IMG/VR virus record: IMGVR_UViG_3300028364_000164
Location: 1 to 21,875 of that record
Direction: 5' to 3' (one strand)
Source: a virus
DNA: 21,875 bases
Shown here: piece by piece, positions 1 to 17,845 of the stretch
Layout: the number at the start of each line of letters is the position of its first letter
Position numbering within the stretch: the stretch's first letter is position 1
Notes under the pieces: model-generated
What the model saw: only the letters and a program-made list of their open reading frames with translations
Told to the model about the DNA's origin: nothing
The model's database searches: none
Program-made: the position numbers and the translations under genes

Positions 1-36
1 TTCAACACTTAAATATAAGAATAAAAATTGGGATTA
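1..36 (-). promoter_or_regulatory. Promoter repeat copy 1 (truncated, lacks -33 box)
   Basis: This is a partial copy of the phage promoter repeat, reading leftward out of the window. The -7 element TATATTT (complement of 11-17) and the spacer up to about 36 match the other copies, most closely the one at 12908. After 36 the match stops. The position where the other copies carry TTG reads AGC here, so the -33 box is missing. The break coincides with the proposed left end of the cassette array. Confidence 0.6.
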
Positions 37-56
37 GCTACTTCATAGCTTTTTTT

Positions 57-2494: not shown

Positions 2495-2504
2495 AATGAA
2501 AAAC

Positions 2505-2633: not shown

Positions 2634-2636
2634 ATA

Positions 2637-2810: not shown

Positions 2811-2841
2811 TTTAATTAAGTTTGTGCTAAACCAATCGTAC

Positions 2842-2944
2842 TACACACAACAATGTATATAGTTTATAAGCCTAATTAATATTCGTTTTTAATTTGTAAA
2901 TTTCTGCCATGGCTTACAAAACCATATACTAAACGTTATGTGCA
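2842..2944. repeat. attC-like site 5
   Basis: The outer boxes are TACACACAAC (2842-2851) and GTTATGTGCA (2935-2944). The inner arms GTATATAGTTTATAAGCC and GGCTTACAAAACCATATAC pair with one extra base on the right arm and A/C positions that become G/T on the minus strand. Confidence 0.75.
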
Positions 2945-2951
2945 ATCATAA

Positions 2952-2990
2952 AAAGCACCGTACAAGTAATTGAAAGAGGTACGGTGCTTT
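2952..2990 (-). terminator. Rho-independent terminator inside cassette E
   Basis: A perfect 12 bp stem (2952-2963 with 2979-2990; core AAAGCACCGTAC) and a 15 nt loop lie just after the cassette E gene on the minus strand. The stem ends in a U-rich run (CUUUUUAU). It should stop leftward transcription from the phage backbone before cassettes D to A. Confidence 0.75.
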
Positions 2991-2994
2991 GCAT

Positions 2995-3940: not shown

Positions 3941-4015
3941 TTTATTTCAGTATTTTAAGTTAAGTGGTTGCTTTTAAGCGAGAGCAACCGAACGCATATA
4001 CCAAGCGTTACCTGC
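3881..4015. repeat. attC-like site 7 (right edge of array)
   Basis: The outer boxes are GGCAGGTAAC (3881-3890) and GTTACCTGC (4007-4015). The inner arms GTATATACGTCAGTTGCT and AGCAACCGAACGCATATAC pair well, with one extra base on the right arm. The flanks AACAAT and CCAAGCGTTA match classical attC consensus features. Phage sequence starts directly to the right, at the 3' end of the D12 methyltransferase gene. Confidence 0.75.
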
Positions 4016-4034
4016 AAGTGCTACGACTGTGCAT

Positions 4035-5217: not shown

Positions 5218-5433
5218 CTAAGAATGACTTTTAAAGCGCATAATGGAAAAACATTCATCAATTATTTCATCAAGTCCAATAATTTTACCACATAACTCAA
5301 ACTCATTAACCTGTGACAATCTTAAAGAATTTACTAATAATAAAATCATTGAGTCGGTTGTTCTAATGTTTTTTAAAACCATTTGAGTTGCTAAATAGCC
5401 TGTTAATTGCCGAACTGTATTGTACTTTTTCAT
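5218..5433 (-). CDS. Small hypothetical protein, 71 residues
   Basis: Not recognised. A probably all-helical, soluble protein (MKKYNTVRQLTGYLATQMVL at the start, then two leucine-rich stretches and a cysteine-containing C-terminal part). There are no zinc pairs or membrane segments. The start ATG overlaps the stop of the upstream gene by ATGA (5430-5433), which supports both genes and this start. It is co-transcribed with the HAD phosphatase and D12 methyltransferase 1. Confidence 0.65.
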   Translation of the reverse strand: MKKYNTVRQLTGYLATQMVLKNIRTTDSMILLLVNSLRLSQVNEFELCGKIIGLDEIIDECFSIMRFKSHS

Positions 5434-5705
5434 TTATCTAAATTTTGCTTGAAATTAACTGCTAATCTTTTTCTGATTCCCCATTCCTTATCCCTTAAAC
5501 TAATATTTTCCTCTTGAATCAATCTTCGTCTTCTGTTTATGCTGTCACAAACAGAATAGTTCTCAGCTAAAAATCTGGCTTCGTCTGACTGCATACCAAA
5601 ATCTTTCAATGTTTCGAAAATTATGGCTTCAGGGTAATCGTCAGATTTCAGTAAATCAAGCGATTGAAACATTATTTTAGTGACTTCTTTTTTAAGATTT
5701 TTCAT
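5430..5705 (-). CDS. Small hypothetical protein, 91 residues
   Basis: Not recognised. It is a charged, mainly helical protein with a basic patch NRRRRLIQEE near residues 57-66, which could contact nucleic acid (inference). It is the first gene after the diverged promoter repeat at 5723-5759. Its ATG (5703-5705) is 18 nt from the leader motif GAGTTC, the same spacing as in the full-length repeats, which supports this start. The stop overlaps the next gene by ATGA. Confidence 0.7.
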   Translation of the reverse strand: MKNLKKEVTKIMFQSLDLLKSDDYPEAIIFETLKDFGMQSDEARFLAENYSVCDSINRRRRLIQEENISLRDKEWGIRKRLAVNFKQNLDK

Positions 5706-5722
5706 TTGGTTTACGATTTTTA

Positions 5723-5759
5723 GAACTCTTAAATTTAGAAATAAAAATTAGAATTACAA
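5723..5759 (-). promoter_or_regulatory. Promoter repeat, diverged copy
   Basis: On the minus strand this reads TTG (5757-5759), a 19 nt spacer, then TAAATTT (5731-5737) and a GAGTTC leader (5723-5728). It is clearly related to the full repeats but differs at many spacer bases. It should drive the operon 5705 to 4035. Confidence 0.6.
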
Positions 5760-6443
5760 TTAAATTAGAGAAAAAAGTTTTTCTGTTCTCATTTCTCTGC
5801 CATTTTCTTTAGTTCTCATTTCTGTTTTAGTATCTATACTCCAAATGCAATCAAAATCTTCAGGGGCTTGATATTCACTAATTATCATTGTGTTGCCCCT
5901 ATCATTCATTTTTCTGCACCATTCCCAGAAAATATCACTGTCAAAATCACCCACCTTGTATTTAGTTGTATTTCGATACGGGGGATCACAATAAATCAAA
6001 GAATGACAATAGCTCAACTCTCGATAATCTTTCTGTTCAAAACGAACCCCTCCTAACGTACTGGTTTTTTTTAAAAGGCTGTTATGTGTATTTTGAGCAA
6101 AATTATCACCTCTACTATTCTTTGCATATCCACCAAAGTATTTCCCACCAAACGAACAACCAAACCCCGCAAAAGCCTTCATTTGAGGGCTGCCATGGTA
6201 TCTAACATGATCGTATTCCTCTTTCGAAAGAGTTTTGGGAGGTATCCAGCCATCTTGGAGAGAAATCCACATTTGAATAAGTTCTTCATGTAAATCGTAA
6301 GCATGTCTTTCGCCTGACATTTTGCTGACTATGTTAGCAGCCCCCGTAAAGGGTTCTACAAATAATTGATTGAGTAATCTCACGTCTTCAAGAATTTGAA
6401 CTATATCGTTTGCTATTCTGCTTTTCGCTCCAAAGTATTGCAT
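5760..6443 (-). CDS. D12-class DNA adenine methyltransferase (Dam-like) 2
   Basis: A 227-residue protein of the D12/Dam family. The N-terminus is MQYFGAKSRIANDI, SAM motif FTGAAN is at residues 32-37, and catalytic DPPY is at 153-156 in IYCDPPYRNTTKYK. It is a paralogue of the enzyme at 4035-4757, similar along the whole length but diverged enough that the targets may differ. The ATG shares one base with the stop of the helicase gene (TAATG), so it is translated in the helicase operon. It is separated from the next unit by the promoter at 5723-5759. The target is unknown; GATC is only a family-based guess. Confidence 0.92.
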   Translation of the reverse strand: MQYFGAKSRIANDIVQILEDVRLLNQLFVEPFTGAANIVSKMSGERHAYDLHEELIQMWISLQDGWIPPKTLSKEEYDHVRYHGSPQMKAFAGFGCSFGGKYFGGYAKNSRGDNFAQNTHNSLLKKTSTLGGVRFEQKDYRELSYCHSLIYCDPPYRNTTKYKVGDFDSDIFWEWCRKMNDRGNTMIISEYQAPEDFDCIWSIDTKTEMRTKENGREMRTEKLFSLI

Positions 6444-8170
6444 TATTTTTCAGCTAGTTTTTTTAATAAATCTTTTAGTACATCCAAATCAGAGCCCGCT
6501 TCATTGAAATCGGAGCCACTGTTGACCGCATTCACCACTTGTAATTTTTCTTCCACTAAAACTCTAATATCTTCATCAATTGTATTTTTGCCAACCATGG
6601 TGTAAATATTGATCACTTCGGCTGTTTGTCCGATTCTATGACTTCTGTCTTCAGCTTGTAGTTTTAAAGCTGGATTGAAAGGTTCCTCAATAAATAGAAC
6701 TGAAGAGCTTTTTGTTAAATTGATTCCTACTCCACCTGCTTTAATGTTGAGAACCAGCACACGAACTTTATCATCATTTTGAAATTTATCAACTATTTCA
6801 TGTCTTTTCTTGATATTCACACCTCCATAAATGGCATCGCAATTGAATTCTTTTGCCAGCTCCTGAACAACTTCCGTATGCCAAGCGAAAACCAGAAGTT
6901 TTTCATTTGTTGAATCCAAAAAGTTTAAAACCCATTCTTTGGCAGGTTCTATTTTGCCATGTCCTGTGGTTTTTCTCAGAGTGGTCATTAAAACTAAATG
7001 CTCTGCTGAATTTACTTTTTCCTCTTGTTCTTCCAGCATTAAAGTGATGTACTCAATTTTATCTTCTTTGGACAATCCTTTGATGGCTGCCTTAAGCTCC
7101 TTTTTTTCAAAAATTTTATTTTGAAGAAAATCCACCAAATTGTTTTCAGCATGAGCGTATTCTTTGGGATTGGAAATATTGACCAAAACATTAGAATAAA
7201 TTTTAGGTGGAAGATCTTTGGCTACATCAATTTTATTCCTTCGAAAATAAAAGCTCTTTGCCATCCGAACATAAAGTTCTTTGATGTTTTGAGCCCCTGA
7301 AATATCAAGTCCAAACCCATTACTTTTAGCAGCGCAATATCTGTGTATGAATGACCAATAGCCACCCAATTCAACCATTTTATCAAGAGCAACAATTGGA
7401 GAAATCAACTCAGACGGTCTATTTTCTATTATTGTGCCCGACAATAAAATCACATAGGGAATTGATTTGATAAGTTTTACTGTTGCAACGCTTCTTTGGG
7501 ATTTTGCATTTTTAATGTAGTGACACTCATCAACCAACATGAATTTAAAATTCAATTTCTCCAAATCTTTAAGCCTTTTCTTAAGAATATCGTAGTTTAT
7601 TATGTAGAAATCATAGCCTGAATAGATAATCTCTTTGGAATCTAATATTTTGGCAGTTCGATTGGGTAGGAATTTTTGTATCTCTGCATCCCAATTGTAT
7701 TTTAACGAAGCTGGACAAACTATTAAAACTGGAAAATTTCCCCTGTATTCCACTGCAACTAAAGACATGAGAGTTTTTCCTAAGCCCATTTCGCATCCAT
7801 TGATCGATTTAATCCAATGAATTGCAGCACTGAACCCTTCTATTTGATAGGGTCTGAGTGTAGCGTTAACGGTTTTGGGGACTTCCAAAAGTGAATAAGT
7901 GGCCTTTGGTTTTCCACTTACCATTTCTTTGGCTTCAGCTTTGAAAAAATCAATTACTTTCTGCTCCTCTTTGCTGGAAAGGAAATTTTCTTCCTGAATG
8001 ATTCTTTGGAGTTCAAAACAATTTCTAAAATCAACAGTAACATCCCACGATTTCACATCCGCAACCCATTTTCGACCACTCAATTTTTTTATTCGGTCAA
8101 GGATATCTTTGTTGAAAGGAAATGATAAGCGTATAGTATTTGTTTTTACTACAGTAGCAGTACGGGCCAT
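6443..8170 (-). CDS. SNF2-family helicase with HARP-like N-terminus
   Basis: A 575-residue SF2 ATPase. Motifs in order: RPYQ (106-109), Walker A MGLGKT (128-133), DECH (214-217), SGT (244-246), and a C-terminal RecA-like lobe with AGGVGINL and motif VI RSHRIGQT (about 509-516). Residues 20-45 (IKKLSGRKWVADVKSWDV) look like the HARP motif of SMARCAL1-type annealing helicases, which rewind forked or RPA/SSB-covered DNA. A role in phage replication-fork handling is inferred. The frame is open to an ATG at 8243-8245, but that ATG lies at the terminator hairpin. I chose ATG 8170 because it lies about 25 nt after a -7 element at 8195-8202. The stop shares a base with the D12 methyltransferase 2 start. 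Confidence 0.9.
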   Translation of the reverse strand: MARTATVVKTNTIRLSFPFNKDILDRIKKLSGRKWVADVKSWDVTVDFRNCFELQRIIQEENFLSSKEEQKVIDFFKAEAKEMVSGKPKATYSLLEVPKTVNATLRPYQIEGFSAAIHWIKSINGCEMGLGKTLMSLVAVEYRGNFPVLIVCPASLKYNWDAEIQKFLPNRTAKILDSKEIIYSGYDFYIINYDILKKRLKDLEKLNFKFMLVDECHYIKNAKSQRSVATVKLIKSIPYVILLSGTIIENRPSELISPIVALDKMVELGGYWSFIHRYCAAKSNGFGLDISGAQNIKELYVRMAKSFYFRRNKIDVAKDLPPKIYSNVLVNISNPKEYAHAENNLVDFLQNKIFEKKELKAAIKGLSKEDKIEYITLMLEEQEEKVNSAEHLVLMTTLRKTTGHGKIEPAKEWVLNFLDSTNEKLLVFAWHTEVVQELAKEFNCDAIYGGVNIKKRHEIVDKFQNDDKVRVLVLNIKAGGVGINLTKSSSVLFIEEPFNPALKLQAEDRSHRIGQTAEVINIYTMVGKNTIDEDIRVLVEEKLQVVNAVNSGSDFNEAGSDLDVLKDLLKKLAEK

Positions 8171-8194
8171 TTGATTTACAATTGATTGGATCGT

Positions 8195-8202
8195 TAAATA
8201 TA
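8195..8202 (-). promoter_or_regulatory. -7 promoter element before the SNF2 helicase
   Basis: The minus strand reads CCTATATTTAACG here, matching the -7 region of the phage promoter repeats (CCTATATTTAAGTG). No good TTG lies 19 nt upstream, because that position falls in the terminator hairpin. The promoter may therefore be weak or need an activator. It fixes the helicase start at 8170. Confidence 0.5.
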
Positions 8203-8205
8203 GGC

Positions 8206-8240
8206 AAAAAAAAACACCCGAACTATTTTTATTCGAGTGT
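8206..8240 (-). terminator. Rho-independent terminator after the secreted protein
   Basis: A 9 bp stem, ACACTCGAA with TTCGGGTGT (8232-8240 with 8214-8222, one G/T pair), has a 9 nt loop and is followed on the minus strand by nine T. It ends transcription of the gene at 8259-8576, and its T-run abuts the helicase promoter. Confidence 0.85.
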
Positions 8241-8258
8241 TTCATTTTCTGATTATGT

Positions 8259-8576
8259 CTAACAAGACTTAATATTTTCTTTCACTTGCATCCTGCGGTA
8301 TTTGATAATGGAAGCAAGGGCTGATTCAGATTGCCATGCAGGACGTATGAGAAAGTCTTCTCGGGGTCTGGGCTCGGGCAAATCGGTCTTTTCTGATGAA
8401 TAATGTTGATAAGAGATTTCGTAAGTTACCTGTGGAGGCTCCATTGTAACAATGCTCGGGGGAGCACCCATTACAAATGAAACTTCGGTTTCAACGAAAT
8501 CACTTGCCAAAACTGGGGCTGCCGTCATAAACACCAACATGGCGAAAACGAACAGCGAGTAGAAGTAATTCTTCAT
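8259..8576 (-). CDS. Small secreted protein with signal peptide
   Basis: A 105-residue protein with a clear N-terminal signal peptide: MKN, a hydrophobic core of about 15 residues (YFYSLFVFAMLVFMTAAPV) and a likely signal peptidase site VLA|SD near residue 24. The mature part is proline-rich (GAPPSIVTMEPPQ, LPEPRPRED), without cysteine pairs apart from a terminal cysteine. It should act in the periplasm or outside the cell. It may function in superinfection exclusion, host-surface change or lysis, which cannot be decided from sequence. It forms its own unit between a palindrome at 8625-8641 and the terminator at 8206-8240, suggesting separate regulation. The family is not recognised. Confidence 0.75.
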   Translation of the reverse strand: MKNYFYSLFVFAMLVFMTAAPVLASDFVETEVSFVMGAPPSIVTMEPPQVTYEISYQHYSSEKTDLPEPRPREDFLIRPAWQSESALASIIKYRRMQVKENIKSC

Positions 8577-8624
8577 TCTTTTTGTTTGGTTTAAGTGAAA
8601 TTAAATTGTACTGATTTTAAAGAG

Positions 8625-8641
8625 AACTCTAATTTAGAGTT
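8625..8641. promoter_or_regulatory. Perfect palindrome, possible operator
   Basis: A 17 bp inverted repeat, AACTCTAA-T-TTAGAGTT, lies in the 102 bp gap upstream of the secreted protein gene. On the plus strand it is followed by a T-run, so it could act as a weak terminator in that direction, but no plus-strand gene ends here. Binding of a dimeric repressor is an equally plausible reading. No good promoter was found in this gap. Confidence 0.35.
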
Positions 8642-8678
8642 TTTTTTTGATTTTGTTTACTGTTTTTTTTATTTTTTT

Positions 8679-8960
8679 TCATTCGTTAATTGAATCCCAA
8701 CAATCCTGACAATAATTTTCATCTGGGGTTAATTCGGGCTCCTTTGAAAAGGCAATATTTGTCAAATCCTCCCACCAGCCACATTCAAAACATTGAAATA
8801 ATTCACTGTTGATATTTGCAATATCTTTCTTGCTTAAATCTTCTTGCTTTATTTTTAATTTAAGATCATAATTCAAAATATCTATGGCTTCACTTATTGA
8901 AATACAAGATCCTTTCAGTAGCTCAATAAGGGCTAAAATATTTTTTTTTGAAATTATCAT
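8679..8960 (-). CDS. Zinc-ribbon hypothetical protein, 93 residues
   Basis: The C-terminal half carries two cysteine pairs, CFECGWW (C57, C60) and YCQDCWD (C84, C87), spaced as in a small zinc ribbon. The N-terminal half is helical with an IALxELLKGS-like segment. Zinc binding is likely; a nucleic-acid or protein partner is unknown. The ATG overlaps the upstream stop by ATGA (8957-8960). It is the last gene of the operon starting at 9925. Confidence 0.75.
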   Translation of the reverse strand: MIISKKNILALIELLKGSCISISEAIDILNYDLKLKIKQEDLSKKDIANINSELFQCFECGWWEDLTNIAFSKEPELTPDENYCQDCWDSINE

Positions 8961-9400
8961 TTAAGTTTCAATAATTTTGATTTTAGTTTTCTGATACTTG
9001 CTTCAAGAGGATGTTTAGCTTTCACTTTTGAAAGTTCTTCCACCCATGTTTCAATGGCATTCGATCTTTTTTGATAGACGAAATTTAAATAGGTTCCTTC
9101 AGGGTATAAATCGGCCTTGGTCTGCAATTCAAATGCATATCCAAGTATGTCATTGACTAATTCCTTTTGGGCTTCTTTAAACCCTTTCAAATTGGTTGCA
9201 TCGAAGAAGTGACGTTGATCATCCAACTGATACATTTTCTTAAGAAAAAGATTGGCCGTCAACAAACTTCTATTCGGATATTCCTTTGAATAAACCACAC
9301 CTCTTCTGAAATTCAGGACATAAAACCAGCCTCCTCCTTCTGGAATTCCCAATTTGGGATTTTCTTTCAGGAGTTTATGTTTTATTCTGATCATTCTCAT
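8957..9400 (-). CDS. Hypothetical protein, 147 residues
   Basis: Not recognised. A soluble, basic protein starting MRMIRIKHKLLKENPKLGIP, with a glycine-rich GGGWFYV turn and a lysine-rich C-terminal helix (SIRKLKSKLLKLK). The frame is open to ATG 9469, but that would overlap the upstream gene by 68 bp. ATG 9400 begins one base after the upstream TAG stop, so I chose it (ATG 9394 is also possible). It overlaps the following zinc-ribbon gene by ATGA. Confidence 0.7.
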   Translation of the reverse strand: MRMIRIKHKLLKENPKLGIPEGGGWFYVLNFRRGVVYSKEYPNRSLLTANLFLKKMYQLDDQRHFFDATNLKGFKEAQKELVNDILGYAFELQTKADLYPEGTYLNFVYQKRSNAIETWVEELSKVKAKHPLEASIRKLKSKLLKLK

Positions 9401-9401
9401 C

Positions 9402-9614
9402 CTAAATTCGGCCTCTCTGTACTGTGGTAAATGGCACCTCAAAAGGTTTTCCCATGCCAAAGGTCTCACTGGTTGCCCAACAAGCGTAACTCATGTGTTC
9501 GTTTGTTGTGATGTTCCTAGTCTCAGTGAAGAACACCACTTGACAAAGAACGGGCTTTCCAATGGCCATTTTTCTAATAAATTTATCCCCAATTAATACG
9601 TTTCTGATTTCCAT
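9402..9614 (-). CDS. Hypothetical protein, 70 residues
   Basis: Not recognised by function. The sequence (MEIRNVLIGDKFIRKMAIGK, then a beta-like middle and a PFEVPFTTVQRGRI end) is compact and beta-rich, similar in feel to small phage proteins of SH3-like fold. Upstream in-frame codons extend to ATG 9659, but this would overlap the previous gene. ATG 9614 leaves an 11 bp gap and gives the natural start. It is the second gene of the operon from promoter copy 2. Confidence 0.7.
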   Translation of the reverse strand: MEIRNVLIGDKFIRKMAIGKPVLCQVVFFTETRNITTNEHMSYACWATSETFGMGKPFEVPFTTVQRGRI

Positions 9615-9625
9615 GATTTCTAAAA

Positions 9626-9925
9626 TTATTTTGTAGTTGCAATAACGAACGAACCGCAAGCATTGGAAACTTGGTACCCAACGTAGGCACCCGATTCAAA
9701 CGGGGCGAAATGATCTCTTGAACGGCCAACAAAGTGAGCACCCAAGATACCCAAACTATACTTAACATTTGACTCAGTGGCGATAGCTGGAGCAAGAACG
9801 TCTTCAACCTGTTCAACCATATCAGTCATTCCATTAAATCCTGAAATACCTTGGTGGAAAAGATTTCCTTCATTTCTTCTAATGAAGCTTTTTACAGTGG
9901 CAATAGTGATTCTTTTAGTAGTCAT
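9626..9925 (-). CDS. Conserved phage hypothetical protein, 99 residues
   Basis: It begins MTTKRITIATVKSFIRRNEG, followed by GFNGMTDMVEQVEDV and a glycine/phenylalanine-rich C-terminus. The TVKSFIR.N..NL and F.GM.D pattern is one I associate with small proteins of Bacteroidetes phages and prophages, function unknown. ATG 9925 was chosen over 9961 because 9961 falls within the promoter repeat. From 9925 the leader motif GTTCAC is 20 nt upstream, as in the other copies. First gene of a four-gene operon (9925 to 8679). Confidence 0.78.
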   Translation of the reverse strand: MTTKRITIATVKSFIRRNEGNLFHQGISGFNGMTDMVEQVEDVLAPAIATESNVKYSLGILGAHFVGRSRDHFAPFESGAYVGYQVSNACGSFVIATTK

Positions 9926-9944
9926 AACGATTTCGATTAACAAT

Positions 9945-9995
9945 GTGAACTCTTTCAACACTTAAATATAGGAAATAAAATTGGATTAACAATAA
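9945..9995 (-). promoter_or_regulatory. Promoter repeat copy 2
   Basis: On the minus strand: TTG (9990-9992), 19 nt, TATATTT (9964-9970), then the leader GAAAGAGTTCAC. This matches the Bacteroidetes promoter pattern with ideal spacing. It drives the operon beginning at 9925. Confidence 0.85.
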
Positions 9996-10005
9996 AAAAA
10001 GAAAT

Positions 10006-10527
10006 TTATTTTCCCTTTTCCATGAATTTTTTATTCAAAATAGTAGCTAGAGCATTGTAGATTCGGGCGAAGTCTTTACGTTGATCTGCATCAGTGATTA
10101 AATGAGCGTACCTATGAGCTATAACCCCTCTTTTAGAATCCCAAACCATTCGGGCTTTATCAACGCCTGCAAGAAAAAAGGTATTGGGATGTCTTCGCCA
10201 CTGGCTTAACACACCCGATTCAACCAATTCCAAAATCTCTGAAGGAATTACGTTTTCATTCATGAATTCTACATTCTGAATTTTACCCTCTTCCAATTCA
10301 ATGGCTGATTTGGTTTTTTCAATGCTTTCATTTTGGCTACGTATGCCATCGCTTTGGCGTTCCCATTTATTCAGGGTAGATTGACCATTCCTTTTATCAT
10401 TCAGTGGCTGGCCATTGGCCTGCTTAACGCTGGCAAAATGATTATCAAATTTTTGTTCCAATTCCTGCTCTTTTTTAGCAAGGGAATTTTTTAATATTTC
10501 GAGTCTTTTAGTCATGGTGGTTTTCAT
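10006..10527 (-). CDS. Hypothetical phage protein with N-terminal coiled coil
   Basis: A 173-residue protein. Residues 5-35 and 65-85 are charged and probably coiled coil (LEILKNSLAKKEQELEQKF; NESIEKTKSAIELEEGKI). The C-terminal half has a conserved-looking block QWRRHPNTFFLAGVDKARMV, then HRYAHLITDADQRKDFARIYN. I recognise this block as typical of uncharacterised phage proteins but know no role. It is a single-gene unit under promoter copy 3. ATG 10527 lies only about 10 nt from the expected transcription start, so ATG 10515 (MTKRLEIL) is an equally good start. Confidence 0.75.
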   Translation of the reverse strand: MKTTMTKRLEILKNSLAKKEQELEQKFDNHFASVKQANGQPLNDKRNGQSTLNKWERQSDGIRSQNESIEKTKSAIELEEGKIQNVEFMNENVIPSEILELVESGVLSQWRRHPNTFFLAGVDKARMVWDSKRGVIAHRYAHLITDADQRKDFARIYNALATILNKKFMEKGK

Positions 10528-10533
10528 TCAATA

Positions 10534-10594
10534 TTTCAACACTTAAATATAGGAAATAAAATTGGATTTACAATAAAAAAAGAAATTTATTTTT
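10534..10594 (-). promoter_or_regulatory. Promoter repeat copy 3
   Basis: TTG (10571-10573), 19 nt, TATATTT (10545-10551) on the minus strand. The GAAAGAGTTCAC leader present in copies 2, 4, 5 and 6 is replaced here (GAAATATTGA). Upstream bases up to about 10594 are shared with copy 2. It drives the gene at 10006-10527. Confidence 0.8.
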
Positions 10595-10799
10595 TGTGAC
10601 TCAAGAGAAAAAAAATCGAAAAAACCCCACTCAAAATTAAAAACCTAGTTTTCGGGAATAAGTATTGTTTAAATGTGTTTTTTACATTTAGTTTTAACTT
10701 TTCCTTTTTTTTTGTCAAAGCATATCCTTTTTCTGAACATTACAAGAGAAAAAAAATTCTCTGGCAAGTTTATTTATAAACTTACTTATTTAGATTAAG
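10595..10799. other. AT-rich intergenic stretch with small inverted repeats
   Basis: About 205 bp with no credible gene on either strand. It contains short hairpins: TAAATGT...ACATTTA near 10665-10690, AGAGAA...TTCTCT near 10745-10762 and GTTTAT-TT-ATAAAC near 10768-10781, plus homopolymer T and A runs. It lies beside a replication-type gene, so an origin or regulatory region is possible. No clear iterons were seen. Confidence 0.35.
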
Positions 10800-10820
10800 T
10801 CCCTCTTTTTTCAAGAGGGA
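10800..10820 (-). terminator. Probable terminator hairpin after the 10839-12173 gene
   Basis: An 8 bp stem TCCCTCTT/AAGAGGGA closes a 5 nt loop 18 bp after the stop codon. The sequence after it on the minus strand (ACTTAATC) is not T-rich, so it may be a processing or weak termination hairpin. Confidence 0.5.
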
Positions 10821-10838
10821 GTAAAACGCCTTGAAATT

Positions 10839-12173
10839 TCATTGGGCACCAATGGAATGAATGCGATTTACCTCTTCAGGAGCTTGATCTAAATTCGCCC
10901 GTAAGGAGAACTTTTCAAAAGAAAAGATACCATCGCCATCTTCCGAACAGAAAAGATCATTAAGGTAATCTTTGATCGAATCAATCGAGAACAAAAATTC
11001 ATAATCCCTCCAGATTTTTTTGATATGGAATCCATCAACATCCATCAATTGCTGAATGTGCCACATTACATAGCGTTTTCGCTCTTTTTTAGGCTTCCTG
11101 ACTTTGTTCAGATTGTAATCGATGGGAACATAACCGTTAACATGAATATCGTAGCAGCTAACCCCATAGACCGTCTTATCTTTCTTTGAAAAAAAGTAGG
11201 CAAGTCCTGATTCTTCCTGAATTCCCTGCTGAAGTGGAAATTGCTCTTTTGCAACATCGTATTCAATTTGATCTGTTTGTTTGAATTTATTTACTGTGAC
11301 ATCAATAAAACCGCAATCTTCCAATTCCTTTCGGAGCCAGTAGCCTGAAGCATCGCTTACATTTCCTACTTTTCTTGAAATCTTCTTACAAGTTATTTTC
11401 ATTGAAACATCCGAATCATTTTTACGCTGATCTGTTTCTTTGGTTTTTGGTTTACTGGCTATTTTGTCGGCATACCACTTGTAACAAGCCAATCCTGCAA
11501 GGACTTTAAGCTTATTTATTTTTAATTCATGCTTTGCAGCCGTGAATTTCAATACTTTAACATTGAATCTTTTGAAATTTGTGTACTCCAAGTCTTTCAA
11601 AGCAGGTTTCCCTGATTTTTTAAGAATTGTGCCTTTCTTGATTCTGAGAATTTTTCCTTTTTTGCTCAAAGAATAAACACCCAAAGTCTGGTGGGCAATC
11701 CGTCTGCCATTCTCATCTTTTTTGCGTTCGGCAATCAGTACTCCAAATTTCGCCCAGACTTTATCCTGAGATAAAAAAACTAGATTTTTGCCTGTTATTT
11801 TGGCAAATCCAAATTTGATAATTCGTGCTTTTTTTCTTTTTATTTCTCGGGCATCCAAATTTAAAAATTCTGCAAATTTTGCATTTATACCTCTATTTTT
11901 GAAAAAACAAACTTGTTTGTTGAAGGATCTTAAAAGAGTGTAATCCCAGTAAGAATCCATAAAGTGTTTCTTTTTGGCTAAATCCTGCTTTGTCAACCCA
12001 TACGATTTTAATAAAAAATTAAGTTCGCTTGATTTACTTCGGCCACTTTCTTTCATCGTTTCTTTTTCGGCTTTGATAGAAAAGGAAATTCCCGCCAGTT
12101 TATTCTTCAAAACACCAATCTCTTGGTGAGTTCTGTTAAATAAATTTTCGGGAAAAGAAATCTGGTAGGTCAT
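10839..12173 (-). CDS. Probable winged-helix replication-type protein, 444 residues
   Basis: A basic protein starting MTYQISFPENLFNRTHQEIG. Two segments look like winged-helix DNA-binding units: one near residues 115-150 (FAEFLNLDAREIKRKKARII, then a beta hairpin) and one near 280-320 (VSDASGYWLRKELEDCGFID). Linkers are lysine-rich. There is no polymerase, primase or nuclease motif. Placement next to an AT-rich gap and the clamp-like gene suggests a replication initiator or DNA-binding regulator, which is inference. Upstream in-frame starts exist at ATG 12203 and TTG 12224, but they add a hydrophobic FLLFCCF run unlikely in a DNA-binding protein. ATG 12203 sits two bases after an AGGAGG. The gene has its own near-perfect promoter at 12286-12315. 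Confidence 0.7.
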   Translation of the reverse strand: MTYQISFPENLFNRTHQEIGVLKNKLAGISFSIKAEKETMKESGRSKSSELNFLLKSYGLTKQDLAKKKHFMDSYWDYTLLRSFNKQVCFFKNRGINAKFAEFLNLDAREIKRKKARIIKFGFAKITGKNLVFLSQDKVWAKFGVLIAERKKDENGRRIAHQTLGVYSLSKKGKILRIKKGTILKKSGKPALKDLEYTNFKRFNVKVLKFTAAKHELKINKLKVLAGLACYKWYADKIASKPKTKETDQRKNDSDVSMKITCKKISRKVGNVSDASGYWLRKELEDCGFIDVTVNKFKQTDQIEYDVAKEQFPLQQGIQEESGLAYFFSKKDKTVYGVSCYDIHVNGYVPIDYNLNKVRKPKKERKRYVMWHIQQLMDVDGFHIKKIWRDYEFLFSIDSIKDYLNDLFCSEDGDGIFSFEKFSLRANLDQAPEEVNRIHSIGAQ

Positions 12174-12285
12174 AAAACAACAAAAGAGGAGAAAGCCAGT
12201 CATCACCTCCTGTTTCCCCCTCAATTGTTTGGATCAAATCCTTTCGTTTATGGTGATGTTAAAACAAAAGGATTTTATATGTGGT

Positions 12286-12316
12286 CAAATGTAACAATTC
12301 AAAATCAAAAAACAAA
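12286..12316 (-). promoter_or_regulatory. Consensus Bacteroidetes promoter for the replication-type gene
   Basis: The minus strand reads TTTG (TTG at 12313-12315), 19 nt, TACATTTG (12286-12293), an ideal match to the TTTG/TAnnTTTG pattern. It is not a copy of the phage repeat. The expected RNA start is about 55 to 105 nt upstream of the candidate start codons, giving an unusually long leader for this window. Confidence 0.75.
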
Positions 12317-12324
12317 TTTTTTTG

Positions 12325-12347
12325 AAAAAAAAAGAGCCCGAAGGCTC
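12325..12347 (-). terminator. Rho-independent terminator after the clamp-like gene
   Basis: A GAGCC-TTCG-GGCTC hairpin with a UUCG tetraloop is followed on the minus strand by nine T, 10 bp after the stop codon of 12357-12890. This is a textbook terminator. Confidence 0.93.
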
Positions 12348-12356
12348 AAATTTCTT

Positions 12357-12890
12357 TCACTGTTTCAGTAACATAAAAGGCAAAATTAAAGCCTCGCCCT
12401 CGTTTTCTCCACTGGTTTCATGCACCCTAGCACCCCGATTTTCACCACTAAATATAAACTTCAAGGGGCCTTCCAAGACGCTGCAAAGCTTACCTATGAA
12501 CTTAGCGTTAAAACCGATCTGCACTACTGGCGAGTCATCCAAAGGCCAAATAGATTGAAAGTCAGGAAACTTCCAGTATAGCTTTGCCATCTCCACAATT
12601 GGAACATGAACCCGTGCGCCATTCTTCATAATACCTATAAGGTTTTTCCCGAATAGGTCAATCTCTACGCTCTTAACGTTTGCAGCGGTCAAGGCCTTCC
12701 ACTGTTTAGGATCAACTGCAAAGTTTGAATCTGCTCCAAGTGCTTCACCAAACCAGTTTCTGGAAGGGTAGCGAACAAGTATGTAGCTATCACTGGCTAG
12801 AATGTGCTTTTCAGTAATTTGAATGAACTTAGTCCACTCCCTAGGGTCTTTGTCGGTAGGAACTAAGTGTAATTTTGGTAATGGTTTCAT
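12357..12890 (-). CDS. Sliding-clamp-like (DnaN-domain) phage protein
   Basis: A 177-residue protein whose layout resembles the beta-clamp fold. It has an early strand-loop (ITEKHILASDSYILVRYP), a middle helix-strand unit (KQWKALTAANVKSVEIDLFG), then VQIGFNAKFIGKLCSVL, LKFIFSGENRGARV and a final EALILPFMLL. The last segment is like the hydrophobic MPMRL end of DnaN. At about half the size of a bacterial clamp subunit it could be a one-domain phage clamp or a clamp-like regulator; rings would need more subunits. It is transcribed alone from promoter copy 4 and ends at a strong terminator, implying high or separately timed expression. The assignment is from pattern memory, so moderate. Confidence 0.65.
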   Translation of the reverse strand: MKPLPKLHLVPTDKDPREWTKFIQITEKHILASDSYILVRYPSRNWFGEALGADSNFAVDPKQWKALTAANVKSVEIDLFGKNLIGIMKNGARVHVPIVEMAKLYWKFPDFQSIWPLDDSPVVQIGFNAKFIGKLCSVLEGPLKFIFSGENRGARVHETSGENEGEALILPFMLLKQ

Positions 12891-12907
12891 AAGTAATTAG
12901 TTGAATT

Positions 12908-12960
12908 GTGAACTCTTTCAACACTTAAATATAAGAATAAAAATTGGATTAACAATAAAA
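12908..12960 (-). promoter_or_regulatory. Promoter repeat copy 4
   Basis: TTG (12953-12955), 19 nt, TATATTT (12927-12933), then GAAAGAGTTCAC on the minus strand; 18 nt from GTTCAC to the ATG at 12890. The spacer variant (TTTTTATTCT) is shared with copy 1 and differs from copies 2, 3, 5 and 6. Confidence 0.85.
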
Positions 12961-12969
12961 AAAAGGAAA

Positions 12970-13173
12970 TTAAATTTTACAAATTGCCTCAATATCTCCC
13001 AAGGTTAAATTTTCCCAGTTTTCCTGCAATTTTTCGTACATCATTAATTGAGGGAGAGTATCAACTGGCAGCGAATAATCTCTCACCTCAAATTCTGAAT
13101 TTTCTTTTTGTTTCTCCAGTTCTGCTACTCTTTCTTTTAACAATTCCAATTCGGATTTTTTATTTGAGTACAT
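12970..13173 (-). CDS. Small coiled-coil protein, 67 residues
   Basis: Residues 5-28 (KKSELELLKERVAELEKQKE) form a heptad-like coiled coil. The rest (LPVDTLPQLMMYEKLQENWENLTLGDIEAICKI) is probably helical. No family recognised. It begins one base after the stop of the upstream gene and is the last gene of the long operon from 16397. Confidence 0.65.
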   Translation of the reverse strand: MYSNKKSELELLKERVAELEKQKENSEFEVRDYSLPVDTLPQLMMYEKLQENWENLTLGDIEAICKI

Positions 13174-13174
13174 T

Positions 13175-14053
13175 TTATTTTTGGTTGAATTTTTTTCGGA
13201 TCATTTCTTCCATGCTTTTTTTCAGTTTCTCATTGACCCCTGAAGCATTGGTGCCCTTTTCGGGAGCGAAATTTTTGACTAAAATAGAAGCGGTTTTCCG
13301 CTTTTCGATTTTCTTTTCCTCTTCAGGCTGGTCTTTGATCTCTTTGAACCCTTCTGAAATTACCGTACTGGATTTCTGATTATTGATTCTAACTAATTTC
13401 ACCTCTTCTACGTGTTCATCATCTTCCACTATGTATTCTTTAGTTAAGAAAAGATCCCCTTCGTAGCTTTCTTCCAATAACTTCAGCAATTCAACTTTTT
13501 CGTCCATCGTAAGTAAATTGATATCTAAATCTTTGGATATAGAATGTTCGAACGAATCAACTCTTGTACTTCTAGTTAAAGTCAAATTGGAATGAAGGGC
13601 TATGCTCAAATCTTTATCCCTCAATCCATACATGTTTTCACGCTGTTTCAGGCTTTTTAAGAGTTCACCATAACGTCTGACAATATCAATATTATTGGCC
13701 CGTTCAAAGTTCTCTTCAGGTGTATAGCACCACCCCACATAAATATTCTTTTCATCATTCCATATTTTTTCATATCTGGAGTCATGGAGCAAAGATGCAA
13801 AATCGATATCCATATCCGCTTCGGTTGAAATCAACTTTCTTGCTTCCATGAGATAAATTCTTGCAGTGATTGCTTTCAATCCCTGACTGTCAACAAAGAA
13901 GTCTTCAATCCATTTGATAGATTTCCCATCCTTTAGGAACCTGTAGGTCATACCTACATTGGCCTCTTTATCCAGTACTTTTTGCTGGGTTGTTACACCC
14001 TTTACGCTCATGAAATTTTGAGGCTTTTTTACGCTTACATTCTTTTTGGCCAC
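13175..14053 (-). CDS. Hypothetical protein, 292 residues, HTH-like N-terminus
   Basis: Residues 30-75 (NVGMTYRFLKDGKSIKWIED, then a helical segment ending ARIYLMEARKLI) look like a helix-turn-helix of the kind found in phage DNA-binding proteins. The middle contains a tryptophan/aromatic patch IWNDEKNIYVGWCYTPEENF. The C-terminal 90 residues are low-complexity and highly charged (PEEEKKIEKRK), probably disordered. Function unknown; DNA binding is inferred. The start ATG follows directly after the stop of the 641-residue gene (14054), so the two are translationally coupled. Confidence 0.65.
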   Translation of the reverse strand: MAKKNVSVKKPQNFMSVKGVTTQQKVLDKEANVGMTYRFLKDGKSIKWIEDFFVDSQGLKAITARIYLMEARKLISTEADMDIDFASLLHDSRYEKIWNDEKNIYVGWCYTPEENFERANNIDIVRRYGELLKSLKQRENMYGLRDKDLSIALHSNLTLTRSTRVDSFEHSISKDLDINLLTMDEKVELLKLLEESYEGDLFLTKEYIVEDDEHVEEVKLVRINNQKSSTVISEGFKEIKDQPEEEKKIEKRKTASILVKNFAPEKGTNASGVNEKLKKSMEEMIRKKFNQK

Positions 14054-15979
14054 TTATTTTACGGTTTTAGTTAGTTTGTTAGTGATCATTCTGTAAGCTT
14101 TATGGTCATCTGCCTTCAGGCTTCTTTTCCATTTGTTTTTAGTTTTCCACCAAGTTATTGCTTCAAGGCCTTTATTGAAATCAATTTCAGGATCTAAGTT
14201 TGAGTCTATCAAAGATAATTTAATGAAATCATCTTCTTCGATTATTTCGGCTTCTTTGGCTTTTCTGAGCTCTTCCAACATAGGCATATTACTCAAATAA
14301 TCCTCTCTTCCCAATCGAGTATGAAGGTAAAATTCCAACAACTTTAAATCTTCTCTTGTCAATTCATCATAATTGATCAAGAAGCTATCATCTTTATAAA
14401 TCAAAAAAGAAACTCTGTTCTTTCTGGTTAAATCAGTATCATGTTTATCCGTCCAAGACCAAGCCCTTTCTCCAGCGGGCAAGTACTTAAATGCTAGAGG
14501 ATTTAATTTTTCGCCAGCCAAAGAATATCGTTCCTTAATCGTCTCAACTAAATAAATTCCTGTGTTTGGTAAACTAGGAATACTGCCATCATACTCGTAA
14601 TACTTTAAAAATCTGTCAGACCAATTACCTCTACCTCTTCCCATATCGTTACTGGAAACGAAAATTCTAGCTCCTTCTTCAATATTGATTCTTTTTGAAG
14701 TCCACCATTCTTTAAAAGTTTTTATTCCCGCTGGCAGCATTTTGGATTTGTCAGCATCATAAATAAATCTCACTTTATCTTCAGGAATTGGGGTCTTGAA
14801 AATTGAAAGGCTATGCATTTCTTCAGGAAAACAAATTGTCCGTTCAATGATGCCCTGCAAAAGAATCATATTCAATTTGTACCTTTCAAGAATTTCTTCT
14901 TTATTGTTTACTCTTCGATGTTGTTCGCCTTTTCCATTTAAAAGCCCTTCGAGTTCAGATTGATCTGGAAACAATTTTTCACCAATTGTGATATCCCCAT
15001 AGATTCTGTAAATATTATCTCCATTTCTAATTAAAACATAAGTTAAATTGTTGTCTCGATTTATTGACCAATTAACAAACGGATTATCTGAATAGTGCTT
15101 TTCCCTTTCCCTAACTTTAAAAATTACAATGCCTTTTTTCTCAGGCATCATTATTTCATAGTTGAACATCCCCCAGTAAGTATTTTTTCTCAGGAGCCAT
15201 TCATCAAACGCTTCTATGTTACTAAAATCAAGACCACCCAAATCTTCTCCAACTTCTCCAACTTCAACATCCATGTACAACCTTCTTTGTCTGAAGCAAA
15301 TTGGCTCCCCTTGAGCAATTGCACCTTGCTTCAAATGGTGTAGCTCCTCATTAACCCCTAAGTAAAGCTCAATGGTATAAATAAGCCTGTTCAACTTCAT
15401 GAGAATTCCACTGTACTCGCTGGCTATTTCTCTTAATTGTCTGGTTCGTTGTTCTAAAAGTTCCTTTGCTGCCTCGCTTCTAGTTGTTAAAAAATCCCTT
15501 TTCAGGATCATCTCTCTTTTTTTCTGTAAGAGGATATCCTTACTCATAATCATCACCTCTCTTGAATTTGATTCTGCAACGTTTGGAAAGGCAGAACGCA
15601 TTAAATCTTCTTTTCCTAATGTTCCGTTCACTAATCCTTTAACATCTTCATCAAAGTTTTCAGGATCAACCAGAAGTCGAACGTACCCAGACTTGAGCTC
15701 ATTCAAAGAATAGGTTCTAGGGCCACCGTCAAAAGTGTTTCCTTTTCCTTTTGGAAATTGAACTGATATCCCAGTTTCTTCCAAATGATCTTTGTTGTAT
15801 TGGGATATTTGATCGCCTGTTAATCTGACAACCTTTCCAGTTCCATAAATAGAGCTCCAAACTGAATCACCAACTTTAAAAATTAGATCATAGCCCAATA
15901 TTTTTTGTTCGATTTCGGCAGGACTCGGAGGAGTCAGTTTTTCAATTTCTGCTTTTTCTGCTTTTCGTAGATTGCTCAT
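14054..15979 (-). CDS. Large conserved phage protein of unknown function, 641 residues
   Basis: Residues 30-100 resemble an SH3/KOW-like barrel of the type used for nucleic-acid or polymerase contact (FKVGDSVWSSIYGTGKVVRL, then VQFP and TYSLNELKSGYVRLL). Residues about 160-215 are predicted coiled coil (LLEQRTRQLREIASEYSGIL). A block with ICFRQRRLYMDVEVGEVGED, SNIEAFDEWLL and LTYVLIRNGDNIYRIYGD follows. I recognise this block as recurring in uncharacterised proteins of large tailed phages. The remainder is mixed alpha/beta without known catalytic motifs, nucleotide-binding loops or metal sites. It lies between two small genes and an HTH-like gene in the operon from 16397. Confidence 0.7.
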   Translation of the reverse strand: MSNLRKAEKAEIEKLTPPSPAEIEQKILGYDLIFKVGDSVWSSIYGTGKVVRLTGDQISQYNKDHLEETGISVQFPKGKGNTFDGGPRTYSLNELKSGYVRLLVDPENFDEDVKGLVNGTLGKEDLMRSAFPNVAESNSREVMIMSKDILLQKKREMILKRDFLTTRSEAAKELLEQRTRQLREIASEYSGILMKLNRLIYTIELYLGVNEELHHLKQGAIAQGEPICFRQRRLYMDVEVGEVGEDLGGLDFSNIEAFDEWLLRKNTYWGMFNYEIMMPEKKGIVIFKVREREKHYSDNPFVNWSINRDNNLTYVLIRNGDNIYRIYGDITIGEKLFPDQSELEGLLNGKGEQHRRVNNKEEILERYKLNMILLQGIIERTICFPEEMHSLSIFKTPIPEDKVRFIYDADKSKMLPAGIKTFKEWWTSKRINIEEGARIFVSSNDMGRGRGNWSDRFLKYYEYDGSIPSLPNTGIYLVETIKERYSLAGEKLNPLAFKYLPAGERAWSWTDKHDTDLTRKNRVSFLIYKDDSFLINYDELTREDLKLLEFYLHTRLGREDYLSNMPMLEELRKAKEAEIIEEDDFIKLSLIDSNLDPEIDFNKGLEAITWWKTKNKWKRSLKADDHKAYRMITNKLTKTVK

Positions 15980-15994
15980 TGGTTGGGTAGTTAA

Positions 15995-16204
15995 CTATTT
16001 TCTATTGAACATTGGTTCGTTGGATATGTCGGTAGGCGTCCAAATCTTGACTACTTCCGATCTTCCAAAATCAGCGGTTATTATTTTGCCTTCCGAAAAA
16101 AATTTGCAAGCAATTAAATTTGGGAACTCTTCAACTACTCGAAGTTTTTTCCCATTAAGGCCTCGATAGTTTGATTTTGTTTTGATGATGGCGTAAGTTT
16201 TCAT
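15995..16204 (-). CDS. Small hypothetical protein, 69 residues
   Basis: Not recognised. Beta-rich sequence (MKTYAIIKTKSNYRGLNGKK, then LRVVEEF, ACKFF, KIITADFGRSEVVKIW), consistent with a small barrel. It follows the 57-residue gene by 19 bp and precedes the 641-residue gene by 15 bp in the same operon. Confidence 0.65.
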   Translation of the reverse strand: MKTYAIIKTKSNYRGLNGKKLRVVEEFPNLIACKFFSEGKIITADFGRSEVVKIWTPTDISNEPMFNRK

Positions 16205-16223
16205 AACGATTTAATTGGGGTTT

Positions 16224-16397
16224 TTAGTTATTTGCTCGGTTGACGTTGTTTCTGAAAGTAGTTAAAGCCTCTCTCCAGACAACCCCGTTATCAAGGGCTT
16301 GAAACCAAATGCTACTTTGAGACATTCTGGTGATTACATAACACCTCCCTGAATGCAAGTGGCGAAAATTTTGGCCGATGATCATTGTAACTCCCAT
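16224..16397 (-). CDS. Small protein, 57 residues, first gene of operon
   Basis: A short open frame, MGVTMIIGQNFRHLHSGRCY, then VITRMSQSSIWFQALDNG and a VWREALTTFRNNVNRAN end. The layout FRH-x-SG-x-CYVI ... IWFQALDNGVVWRE ... F resembles, from memory, the DUF1653 type of small beta-rich domain (RHYKGG.YEV ... VVYRALYG ... WVRPL.MF). That assignment is tentative. The gene is well supported by position: ATG 16397 is 22 nt from the conserved leader GTTCAC of promoter copy 5, and the stop is 19 bp from the next gene. Confidence 0.7.
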   Translation of the reverse strand: MGVTMIIGQNFRHLHSGRCYVITRMSQSSIWFQALDNGVVWREALTTFRNNVNRANN

Positions 16398-16418
16398 AAT
16401 TCCTATTTTTTTGACAAT

Positions 16419-16469
16419 GTGAACTCTTTCAACACTTAAATATAGGAAATAAAATTGGATTTACAATAT
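16419..16469 (-). promoter_or_regulatory. Promoter repeat copy 5
   Basis: TTG (16464-16466), 19 nt, TATATTT (16438-16444), leader GAAAGAGTTCAC, on the minus strand. It should drive the operon 16397 to 12970, which holds five genes. Confidence 0.85.
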
Positions 16470-16502
16470 AAAAGGGAATGAATTTTCAAATAAATTCATC
16501 TA

Positions 16503-16817
16503 TTATTTGTTGTCTAGTTCTTTGGCTCTTGTATTGATGGCCTCAATTTTTGATTTTAAGGATCTATTTTTTGATCGCTTTTTAGCTGCATCTTTACTTT
16601 GTGTTAAGAAGTCATTTGCCCGTTTCAGGGATGCATTACGATGCCCAAAAATAGGCGTGTGTCTTTTCAACCAAGCAGGGTACTCAACTGGAGCAGCTAT
16701 TTTGGCTTGATATATTCTGGATGGGCTTTCTGTGAGTTTACAAGAAATTGCCATTGTAGCCCATATTACAATGAATATGGCTGCCAGTATTCTGTTTTTT
16801 ACTTTTTTGTTAGTCAT
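16503..16817 (-). CDS. Probable lipoprotein or membrane-anchored protein, 104 residues
   Basis: The N-terminus MTNKKVKNR is basic and is followed by a hydrophobic segment ILAAIFIVIWATMAISC. A cysteine at about residue 26 is preceded by AIS, an imperfect lipobox, so the protein is either lipidated or a single-span anchor. The rest is strongly basic and helical (SKDAAKKRSKNRSLKSKIEA). A basic, membrane-tethered protein of this size could be a lysis accessory (spanin-like) or a surface protein; neither is proven. It overlaps the upstream gene by 8 bp and is last in its operon. Confidence 0.65.
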   Translation of the reverse strand: MTNKKVKNRILAAIFIVIWATMAISCKLTESPSRIYQAKIAAPVEYPAWLKRHTPIFGHRNASLKRANDFLTQSKDAAKKRSKNRSLKSKIEAINTRAKELDNK

Positions 16818-17220
16818 TTTCTAGTATTTTTTTAATTGATTCGATTATTTGAGATTCTTTTGATCCAACATTCACTAAAACGTCATTCCTAACTCTTACT
16901 GAAATTGATATTGAATTTGTGATATTAGTATGAATAGCGCAAAAATCATCAACCTCCACCTCTTTTTTCTTTTCCAGAACCACATTGCAATTCATTCCCT
17001 GCTTTTTAGCAAGCTCTTTGATCTGATCTGTTAGTGATTCTAAGGTAGGTGCTTCTTCTTCAAATACTTCTTCCCATTCATCGGGATAGCGTTTTGACAT
17101 GTGCAAAACACTAATTTCGTTGAACAAATGATTTTCTGGATAAATCATGCCTATTTCAGGAGAAATTGGCACATAATCTTGAGCTTCTTCTTTTGTGCCT
17201 ATAAACTTGTATTTTTTCAT
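16810..17220 (-). CDS. Hypothetical protein, 136 residues
   Basis: Not recognised. It begins MKKYKFIGTKEEAQDYVPIS, has an acidic middle (WEEVFEEEAPTLESL) and a beta-like C-terminal half (SISISVRVRNDVLVNVG). The upstream frame is open to 17298, but that would overlap the previous gene; ATG 17220 gives a clean 43 bp gap. It overlaps the membrane-anchored gene by 8 bp. Confidence 0.7.
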   Translation of the reverse strand: MKKYKFIGTKEEAQDYVPISPEIGMIYPENHLFNEISVLHMSKRYPDEWEEVFEEEAPTLESLTDQIKELAKKQGMNCNVVLEKKKEVEVDDFCAIHTNITNSISISVRVRNDVLVNVGSKESQIIESIKKILEND

Positions 17221-17244
17221 AATCGCTTGTTTAATTGTGTAAGT

Positions 17245-17256
17245 GCCCCGAAGGGC
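17245..17256 (-). promoter_or_regulatory. UUCG-tetraloop hairpin between two genes
   Basis: GCCC-TTCG-GGGC on the minus strand lies in the 43 bp gap before the gene at 17220. The stem is short but very stable. There is no T-run, so it is more likely an RNA-processing or translation-tuning element than a terminator. Confidence 0.4.
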
Positions 17257-17263
17257 TATTGAT

Positions 17264-17554
17264 TTATTTATTCCGTTGATTAAATGTAGTTTCTGCAAGA
17301 TGAGGGTGAAGAACTATGTTTGTTCTGTCCCCATTTAATCCATAACTGACAACGAAAACAGAATTTTTTTCATAAATCGTTTCGCAAAAAACGGTGTATT
17401 TTACCATTTTAGATCCCTGTGGAGTCTCGTATCTGCTGATGCTTTTTACTGTATAATTTATCAGGTTTTCCATTCTTCGGCCTCTGGCTAGAATATTAGT
17501 AGGATTGGAGGTATAGATTAAATCCTGCATTGCAATTGTGTTTTCAGTTGTCAT
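17264..17554 (-). CDS. Hypothetical protein, 96 residues
   Basis: Not recognised. The first 28 residues are unstructured-looking (MTTENTIAMQDLIYTSNPTN). The rest, from MENLINYTVKSI, has beta-strand periodicity (MVKYTVFCETIYEKNSVFVV). It is the first gene after promoter copy 6. ATG 17554 is 23 nt from the leader GTTCAC, matching the other copies; internal ATGs at 17530 and 17473 are alternatives. Confidence 0.65.
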   Translation of the reverse strand: MTTENTIAMQDLIYTSNPTNILARGRRMENLINYTVKSISRYETPQGSKMVKYTVFCETIYEKNSVFVVSYGLNGDRTNIVLHPHLAETTFNQRNK

Positions 17555-17576
17555 GATCTATTTTGGTTTACGATTT

Positions 17577-17625
17577 GTGAACTCTTTCAACACTTAAATA
17601 TAGGAAATAAAATTGGATTAAAAAA
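17577..17625 (-). promoter_or_regulatory. Promoter repeat copy 6 (altered -33)
   Basis: TATATTT (17596-17602) and leader GAAAGAGTTCAC match the other copies. At the -33 position (17622-17624) the minus strand reads TTT instead of TTG. Drives the genes 17554 to 16503. Confidence 0.75.
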
Positions 17626-17626
17626 A

Positions 17627-17845
17627 CTATTTAAAAATTAATTTGCAAATAAATCCATCTTCTTTCAAGGCATTTAAACAAGAAATAAGGAATGCATCTG
17701 CAACAACATCCTTATTAATGTTAAAAATAAGCTTCTTTCCTTCAGAATGGCTATACATTTTAATTTTCTTAAAAGTTTTATCCATTCTACGAAATTGCAA
17801 CCTGTCAATTTCCGAATCCGTGAAATCTATCCAAACTCTTCTCAT
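17627..17845 (-). CDS. Small hypothetical protein, 72 residues
   Basis: Not recognised. It is basic, MRRVWIDFTDSEIDRLQFRR at the start, and ends ALKEDGFICKLIFK. Its alternation suggests a small alpha/beta fold. The ATG overlaps the stop of the large terminase by ATGA, so it is translationally coupled to it. That places it as a possible packaging accessory, which is inference from position only. Confidence 0.65.
   Translation of the reverse strand: MRRVWIDFTDSEIDRLQFRRMDKTFKKIKMYSHSEGKKLIFNINKDVVADAFLISCLNALKEDGFICKLIFK

Follow-up and report, generated by a model that had tools for sequence, protein, structure and literature searches.

A putative promoter-plus-leader module repeated at gene borders of a phage related to MA9V-3

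Why does one short, promoter-like element recur almost unchanged in front of genes that are unrelated to one another? This question is raised by the IMG/VR virus record IMGVR_UViG_3300028364_000164, which we analysed in its entirety (21,875 bases, hereafter the window). The window is AT-rich and its likely genes all lie on the minus strand. They encode a UvrD-type helicase, a terminase large subunit, a RusA-like resolvase, an SNF2 helicase and three DNA methyltransferases, together with many short genes without an assigned function. We put at about three in four the probability that the repeats belong to a single module of promoter plus leader in a Bacteroidota myophage akin to the Chryseobacterium myophage MA9V-3, read by a polymerase of the host type and giving accessory genes at unit borders their own start signals.

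All seven copies of the element in the window lie on the minus strand: five are full, one has diverged and one is truncated by the contig end. Full copies are located at 17576..17625 (-7 box at 17596-17602), 16418..16467 (TTG-N19-TATATTTA plus leader), 12907..12956 (spacer variant AATCCAATTTTTATTCT), 10534..10574 (leader diverged past GTTGAAA) and 9944..9993. They would drive the open reading frame (ORF) 17264-17554, ORF 16224-16397, the RusA-like gene 12357-12890, ORF 10006-10527 and ORF 9626-9925, respectively. The diverged copy (5716..5760, TTG-N19-TAAATTTA) would drive ORF 5430-5705, and the truncated copy occupies positions 1..39. Each of the six complete copies lies in a non-coding gap before a minus-strand gene and points towards that gene, with 24-48 nt between the T of the -7 box and the start codon. 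None was found inside a gene, and outside the cassette array described below a copy is present in most of the larger gaps. The initial annotation had placed the same seven copies directly upstream of transcription units and nowhere else, and had named a position mainly inside genes as a result that would speak against it; the former is confirmed and the latter was not seen.

We built a scoring matrix from the copies in the window and in a second contig set, scanned both strands and used 200 simulated sequences as the control. The window copies scored 27-60 bits and the next best site on either strand reached 2.1 bits. For the simulated sequences the mean maximum was 1.8 bits and the highest maximum 17.8 bits. 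With a separate second matrix the copies scored 27-64 bits and no other site reached 8 bits. An exact scan of IMG/VR for TATATTTAAGTGTTGAA returned 22 stretches, and the remainder of the element occurred only in those of two contig sets. In the same scan contig G001 was 99.9% like the window, and the overlapping contigs G002, G003, G004 and L026 were >99.6% alike and shared only the element with the window. The second contig set (hereafter B; two contigs joined on their overlap, 29.5 kb) holds six further copies, giving 13 copies in ∼51 kb. B encodes a head protease, the major capsid protein, the sheath and the tape measure protein in the order and orientation seen at 97k-76k of MA9V-3, and the window maps to 25.7k-15.9k of the same genome. 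From this synteny and the shared element we infer that the window and B represent one phage or two very close ones. The 36-nt element pattern had no match in 84,980 bacterial and archaeal genomes. Weak matches to staphylococcal phages (E 0.3) were taken as chance, and promoters of the E. coli sigma-70 type, of which fewer were found than in shuffled sequences, were set aside as not relevant.

In minus-strand orientation the element reads TATTG-T[TA]AATCCAATTTTATTTC[CT]-TATATTTA-AGTGTTGAAAGAGTTCACA. Across the 13 copies the pairwise identity was 0.41 upstream of the element, 0.59 in TATTG, 0.84 in the spacer and 0.98 in the -7 box. Past the -7 box it was 0.90 and 0.69 for the next two blocks of ten nucleotides and 0.39 beyond. 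The limits of the conserved block lie at about -23 and +22 around the -7 box, with pairwise values of 0.84-0.98 from the spacer to +17. The spacer is AT-rich and contains an invariant C. The initial annotation had described the spacer as more conserved than a sigma factor would need, and the contrast with both flanks bears this out, as does the finding that most relatives conserve just the -33 and -7 boxes and not the spacers. The conservation over ∼20 nt past the -7 box (AAGTGTTGAAAGAGTTCACA) is an additional point. All copies (13/13) fit TAHHTTT in the -7 box, and within the window the diverged copy (TAAATTT) is the only one without TATATTT, as had been reported. TTG is present in 10/13 copies, at a spacing of 19 nt to the -7 box wherever it occurs. 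According to the initial annotation this TTG was missing from copies 1 and 6. Two window copies do lack it, namely those at position 1 (AGC, with one additional C in the spacer) and at 17576-17625 (TTT), though the numbering holds under just one way of counting and the diverged copy has a TTG.

Promoters of the Bacteroidota follow the plan TTTG / TAnnTTTG with the start 4-5 nt further on, as described for F. johnsoniae and B. thetaiotaomicron, and in the published Flavobacterium consensus the final -7 base is a near-invariant G (PMC6847099, PMC7366714). Compared to the sigma-ABfr promoter, the element agrees in the spacing of ∼19 nt and departs from the -7 sequence TAHHTTTG in its final G. AT-rich stretches near -18 and -28 also match Bacteroidota promoters. 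Judged by its sequence, the element is a Bacteroidota-type promoter with one changed -7 base and an unusually fixed interior, and we regard the presence of a family of such predicted promoters in this phage as confirmed.

The genes behind the copies indicate how the family may have arisen. We found no paralogues among the first genes behind the copies, which are unrelated to one another. A homologue in the loci of relatives was observed for 1/12 of these first genes vs 25/54 of the other genes (P=0.013). At one site the homologues of two tail genes, B 25200-25679 and B 26495-26866, lie ≤113 nt apart in 34 of the 38 relatives compared, the median over all of them being 67 nt, and in this phage the same pair is separated by 815 nt holding two copy-plus-gene units. 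The relative L112 carries an insert of its own at this site, in which a terminator is paired with the canonical promoter TTTG-N19-TACCTTTG. At a second site, between B 10548-13832 and B 16078-17628, the distance is 2245 nt vs ≤25 nt in several relatives including MA9V-3. At both sites genes absent from relatives lie between conserved neighbours, as expected of morons. As for the other marks of a moron, its own promoter and terminator, the promoter sequence is there at every copy and a terminator hairpin beside about half: a hairpin followed by a T-rich run lies directly upstream in about 6/13 copies, for example ATGAATTT/AAATTCAT before the copy at 16418..16467. As the copies stand at unit borders, in several cases directly behind an intrinsic terminator, accessory genes and short operons would each have a start signal of their own. 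The unrelated first genes, mostly absent from relatives, and the split tail pair suggest that the copies travel as promoters with accessory genes. Duplication as the origin of the copies is likewise supported by the unrelated genes that follow them, by the two clean insertions and by the ∼22 nt of further upstream sequence that copies 9944 and 10534 have in common.

The same shared upstream sequence, together with the existence of a diverged copy, would also fit neutral remnants of a very recent duplication, whose only common function is to be promoters and whose identity reflects little time. With >99.6% likeness between them, contigs of the same phage give no gauge of time depth. However, the flanks and downstream genes are unrelated and yet the block limits are broadly similar in 13 copies, and the copies are placed only at unit borders, so we consider this explanation rather unlikely. 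A repeat that is no promoter at all, such as a recombination or replication site or a translation signal, is very improbable. Repeats bordering inserted genes would suit homologous recombination, but the copies occur in a single orientation and always ∼24-65 nt before a start codon, and most of them have both promoter boxes at the canonical spacing.

Under the promoter-plus-leader interpretation each copy would serve a host-type RNA polymerase with a TTG near -33, 19 nt of spacing and the -7 box TATATTTA. The predicted start of transcription lies 4-5 nt past the -7 box, which would leave a leader of roughly 12-42 nt; that transcription starts at the copies is what their sequence suggests. Most likely the host polymerase reads the copies and the phage has multiplied the promoter together with its leader. 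One good unit may have been copied to many unit borders and spread by recombination in ready-made form, making newly gained genes independent of their neighbours. The fixed spacer would then give all genes driven by a copy one common strength and timing. Of the regulon proposed in the initial annotation, a promoter family at the borders of transcription units is supported, and the co-regulation is presumed.

Several observations do not fit this interpretation well. The base that follows TAHHTTT is A in all 13 copies (TATATTTA) and not the near-invariant G of F. johnsoniae. TTG is absent from 3/13 copies and, where present, is preceded by A, giving ATTG; TTTG occurs in 0/13. No hairpin precedes about half of the copies. 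The trend towards accessory genes reaches only P=0.11 against length-matched genes, and synteny and the shared element are all that joins the window and B into one genome. Finally, the spacer is conserved beyond the needs of a simple host promoter, for which the interpretation by itself gives no account.

This last point would be explained if spacer and leader formed the binding site of a phage-encoded activator or repressor, making the family a true regulon comparable to that of SPBRE and MrpR in SPbeta. The spacer is kept (0.84) even in the three copies without TTG, including its invariant C amid AT-rich sequence, in contrast to the spacers of most relatives, and a -7 box without the final G of the host would suit a promoter in need of help. 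On the other hand, no clear dyad or tandem half-site is visible by eye and recent copying accounts equally well for the near-identity. By Pfam we found no HTH_3 protein, sigma factor or recognisable regulator in the ∼51 kb seen of this incomplete phage, and there was no convincing DNA-binding domain among 46 smaller proteins. A regulator is hence possible but doubtful. Where the initial annotation had offered recent duplication or a phage regulator, the former is supported and the latter has no recognisable candidate in these ∼51 kb.

Searching for the element in relatives with ∼50-66% identity in the major capsid protein or terminase, we found only other promoter sequences. Families of at least three near-identical repeats were few across 158 sequences (2.4 Mb) and several of them were coding or start-codon repeats; besides the window and B, promoter-like families occurred in MA9V-3 and L033, with a sequence specific to each phage. 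In the annotated gaps of MA9V-3, sense-strand TAHHTTT was followed by A in 18 cases, by G in 3, by T in 6 and by C in 1. Several relatives likewise end the -7 box in A, and L112 and L128/L129 keep G. When TTG was required and only sites upstream of genes were considered, we counted A35:G6 in the MA9V-3-like group vs A25:G61 in loci of Bacteroidota genomes and A9:G25 in other terminase relatives. Two Chryseobacterium genomes gave A23:G35 (P=6e-5 compared to the group without the window phage).

These counts would fit an altered RNA polymerase, in which a sigma factor produced or modified by this phage group would shift recognition from the TAnnTTTG of the host to TAnnTTTA. Sigma-70 family proteins of 295-309 aa are present in three relatives by capsid protein (L189, L190 and L191); their region 2 is strong (E 1.7e-13 to 7.2e-18), and Pfam region 4 was not detected in them. 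However, MA9V-3 has TTTA promoters and no detectable sigma factor: neither PF04542/PF04545 nor a profile built from the three relatives matched anything in MA9V-3, the window or B. The sigma-bearing relatives do not share a single -7 type. TTTG is used by the sigma-bearing L129 and also by L112, a close relative of the window phage. MA9V-3 accounts for nine of the group's A sites; without it and the window phage only about A17:G5 remain, which are few sites. The window itself carries a host-consensus promoter outside the repeat family, TTG-N19-TACATTTG at 12286..12315 on the minus strand, before the ORF ending at 10839. We consider an altered polymerase unlikely. As the shift is not universal, owes nine A sites to MA9V-3 and coexists with this canonical promoter, it is a lead only. 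A combined scenario, in which a factor of the MA9V-3-like phages redirects the host polymerase to TTG-N19-21-TAnnTTTA, recognises the lineage-specific spacer and lets the module spread before new genes, is speculative and quite improbable. The T7-type polymerase profile PF00940 gave no match, and neither did it in the controls. L116 and L121 show a further phage-specific promoter-like set, AGTATTTTTAATTTCA, in three to four places, and the phage encodes a sigma factor. L121 also contains a near-identical, apparently coding repeat, AAAAATCCGACTCAGACC..., at about 13560, 19500 and 19800.

Other features of the two contig sets are as follows. The first gene behind copy 12907 (12357..12890, minus strand) encodes a RusA-like Holliday junction resolvase (PHROG 3007, E 9.7e-08) and is followed by the terminator hairpin GAGCCTTCGGGCTC plus T run at 12334..12347 on the same strand, so that promoter copy, gene and terminator would form one self-contained unit. 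The motifs AAATCGTTATG and ATCGTAAACCAAAATG recur right before start codons in the window and B, with similar sequences at some genes without a promoter repeat (e.g. 16204), and possibly represent a translation leader. At ∼1336-4016 of the window, on the minus strand, we observed an integron-type gene cassette array of about six short genes, each opening with an attC-like GTTRNNN and ending in the complement that matches it (GTTATGTGCA/TGCACATAAC, GTTAGCCACC/GGTGGCTAAC, GTTATAAACC/GGTTTATAAC, GTTACCTAC/GTAGGTAAC and others). The diverged copy at 5716..5760 is the nearest copy upstream of this array. No integrase was seen in the window, and attC clusters without an integrase are known from virulent phages (PMC9892861). 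One cassette gene (2995-3498) resembles the restriction alleviation protein Lar in Pfam, weakly and below threshold (E 0.0072), and possibly forms a counter-defence cluster with the three nearby DNA methyltransferase genes. G001 lacks ∼576 nt (window 5833-6409) inside the D12 methyltransferase gene 5760-6443, with ∼8 nt shared at the junction, which is either a real deletion or an assembly slip. B 10548-13832 (L018:470-3754) encodes a single 1094-aa chain with matches to PHROGs for NUDIX hydrolase, RNA ligase, polynucleotide kinase and head/portal proteins.

Little work seems to have been done on how Bacteroidota phages use promoters; a limited literature search returned no promoter map of such a phage. 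A nearly fixed promoter in 13 copies would offer a direct handle on gene timing and on the wiring-in of new genes in these phages. The final A, common to MA9V-3, yields a testable prediction on whether the host sigma factor alone reads the sites. Bacteroidota promoters are unlike those of E. coli, and the module is a candidate genetic part for this phylum.

Among known systems the element is closest in plan to the primary-sigma promoter of the Bacteroidota, which it resembles in the TTG near -33 of most copies, the 19-nt spacing, the TAnnTTT box and leaders of ordinary length, and from which it differs in the last -7 base, in ATTG instead of TTTG and in the nearly fixed spacer and leader. MA9V-3 (PV245944.1) offers a parallel, in that small genes are preceded by ∼10 repeated promoters (TTG-N19-21-TANCTTTA) with a partly conserved spacer, TCTTGTGTAGGTTAGA, although its spacer sequence is another one and the identity among its copies is lower; the paper on this isolate (PMC13120357) does not mention promoters. 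SPBRE, the MrpR operator of the prophage SPbeta (PMC10516654), likewise recurs in conserved form in the intergenic promoter regions of a large phage genome. However, it measures 15 bp and is the operator of a known repressor, whereas the conserved block described here is the predicted promoter itself, and thus the resemblance is one of distribution only. The start-associated sequences (SAS) of cluster K mycobacteriophages (PMC3203893) are repeats tied to the starts of mostly non-structural genes, but they are ribosome-binding sites 3-7 bp from the start codon. With its -7 box at least 24 nt away, we rejected the element as a SAS. Morons of lambdoid and other phages are described as acquired genes transcribed independently of the remaining phage genes (PMC6469090, PMC7067206). 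The units described here are like them in being accessory genes with a promoter of their own, inserted between conserved genes and in some cases followed by a terminator; the related MA9V-3 has been called strictly lytic, so that the comparison does not imply expression in lysogeny. Unlike in those phages, one identical promoter sequence serves many unrelated inserts. The arrangement is the moron plan with one standard promoter reused, and this promoter has the look of the Bacteroidota type and misses its consensus at the last -7 base.

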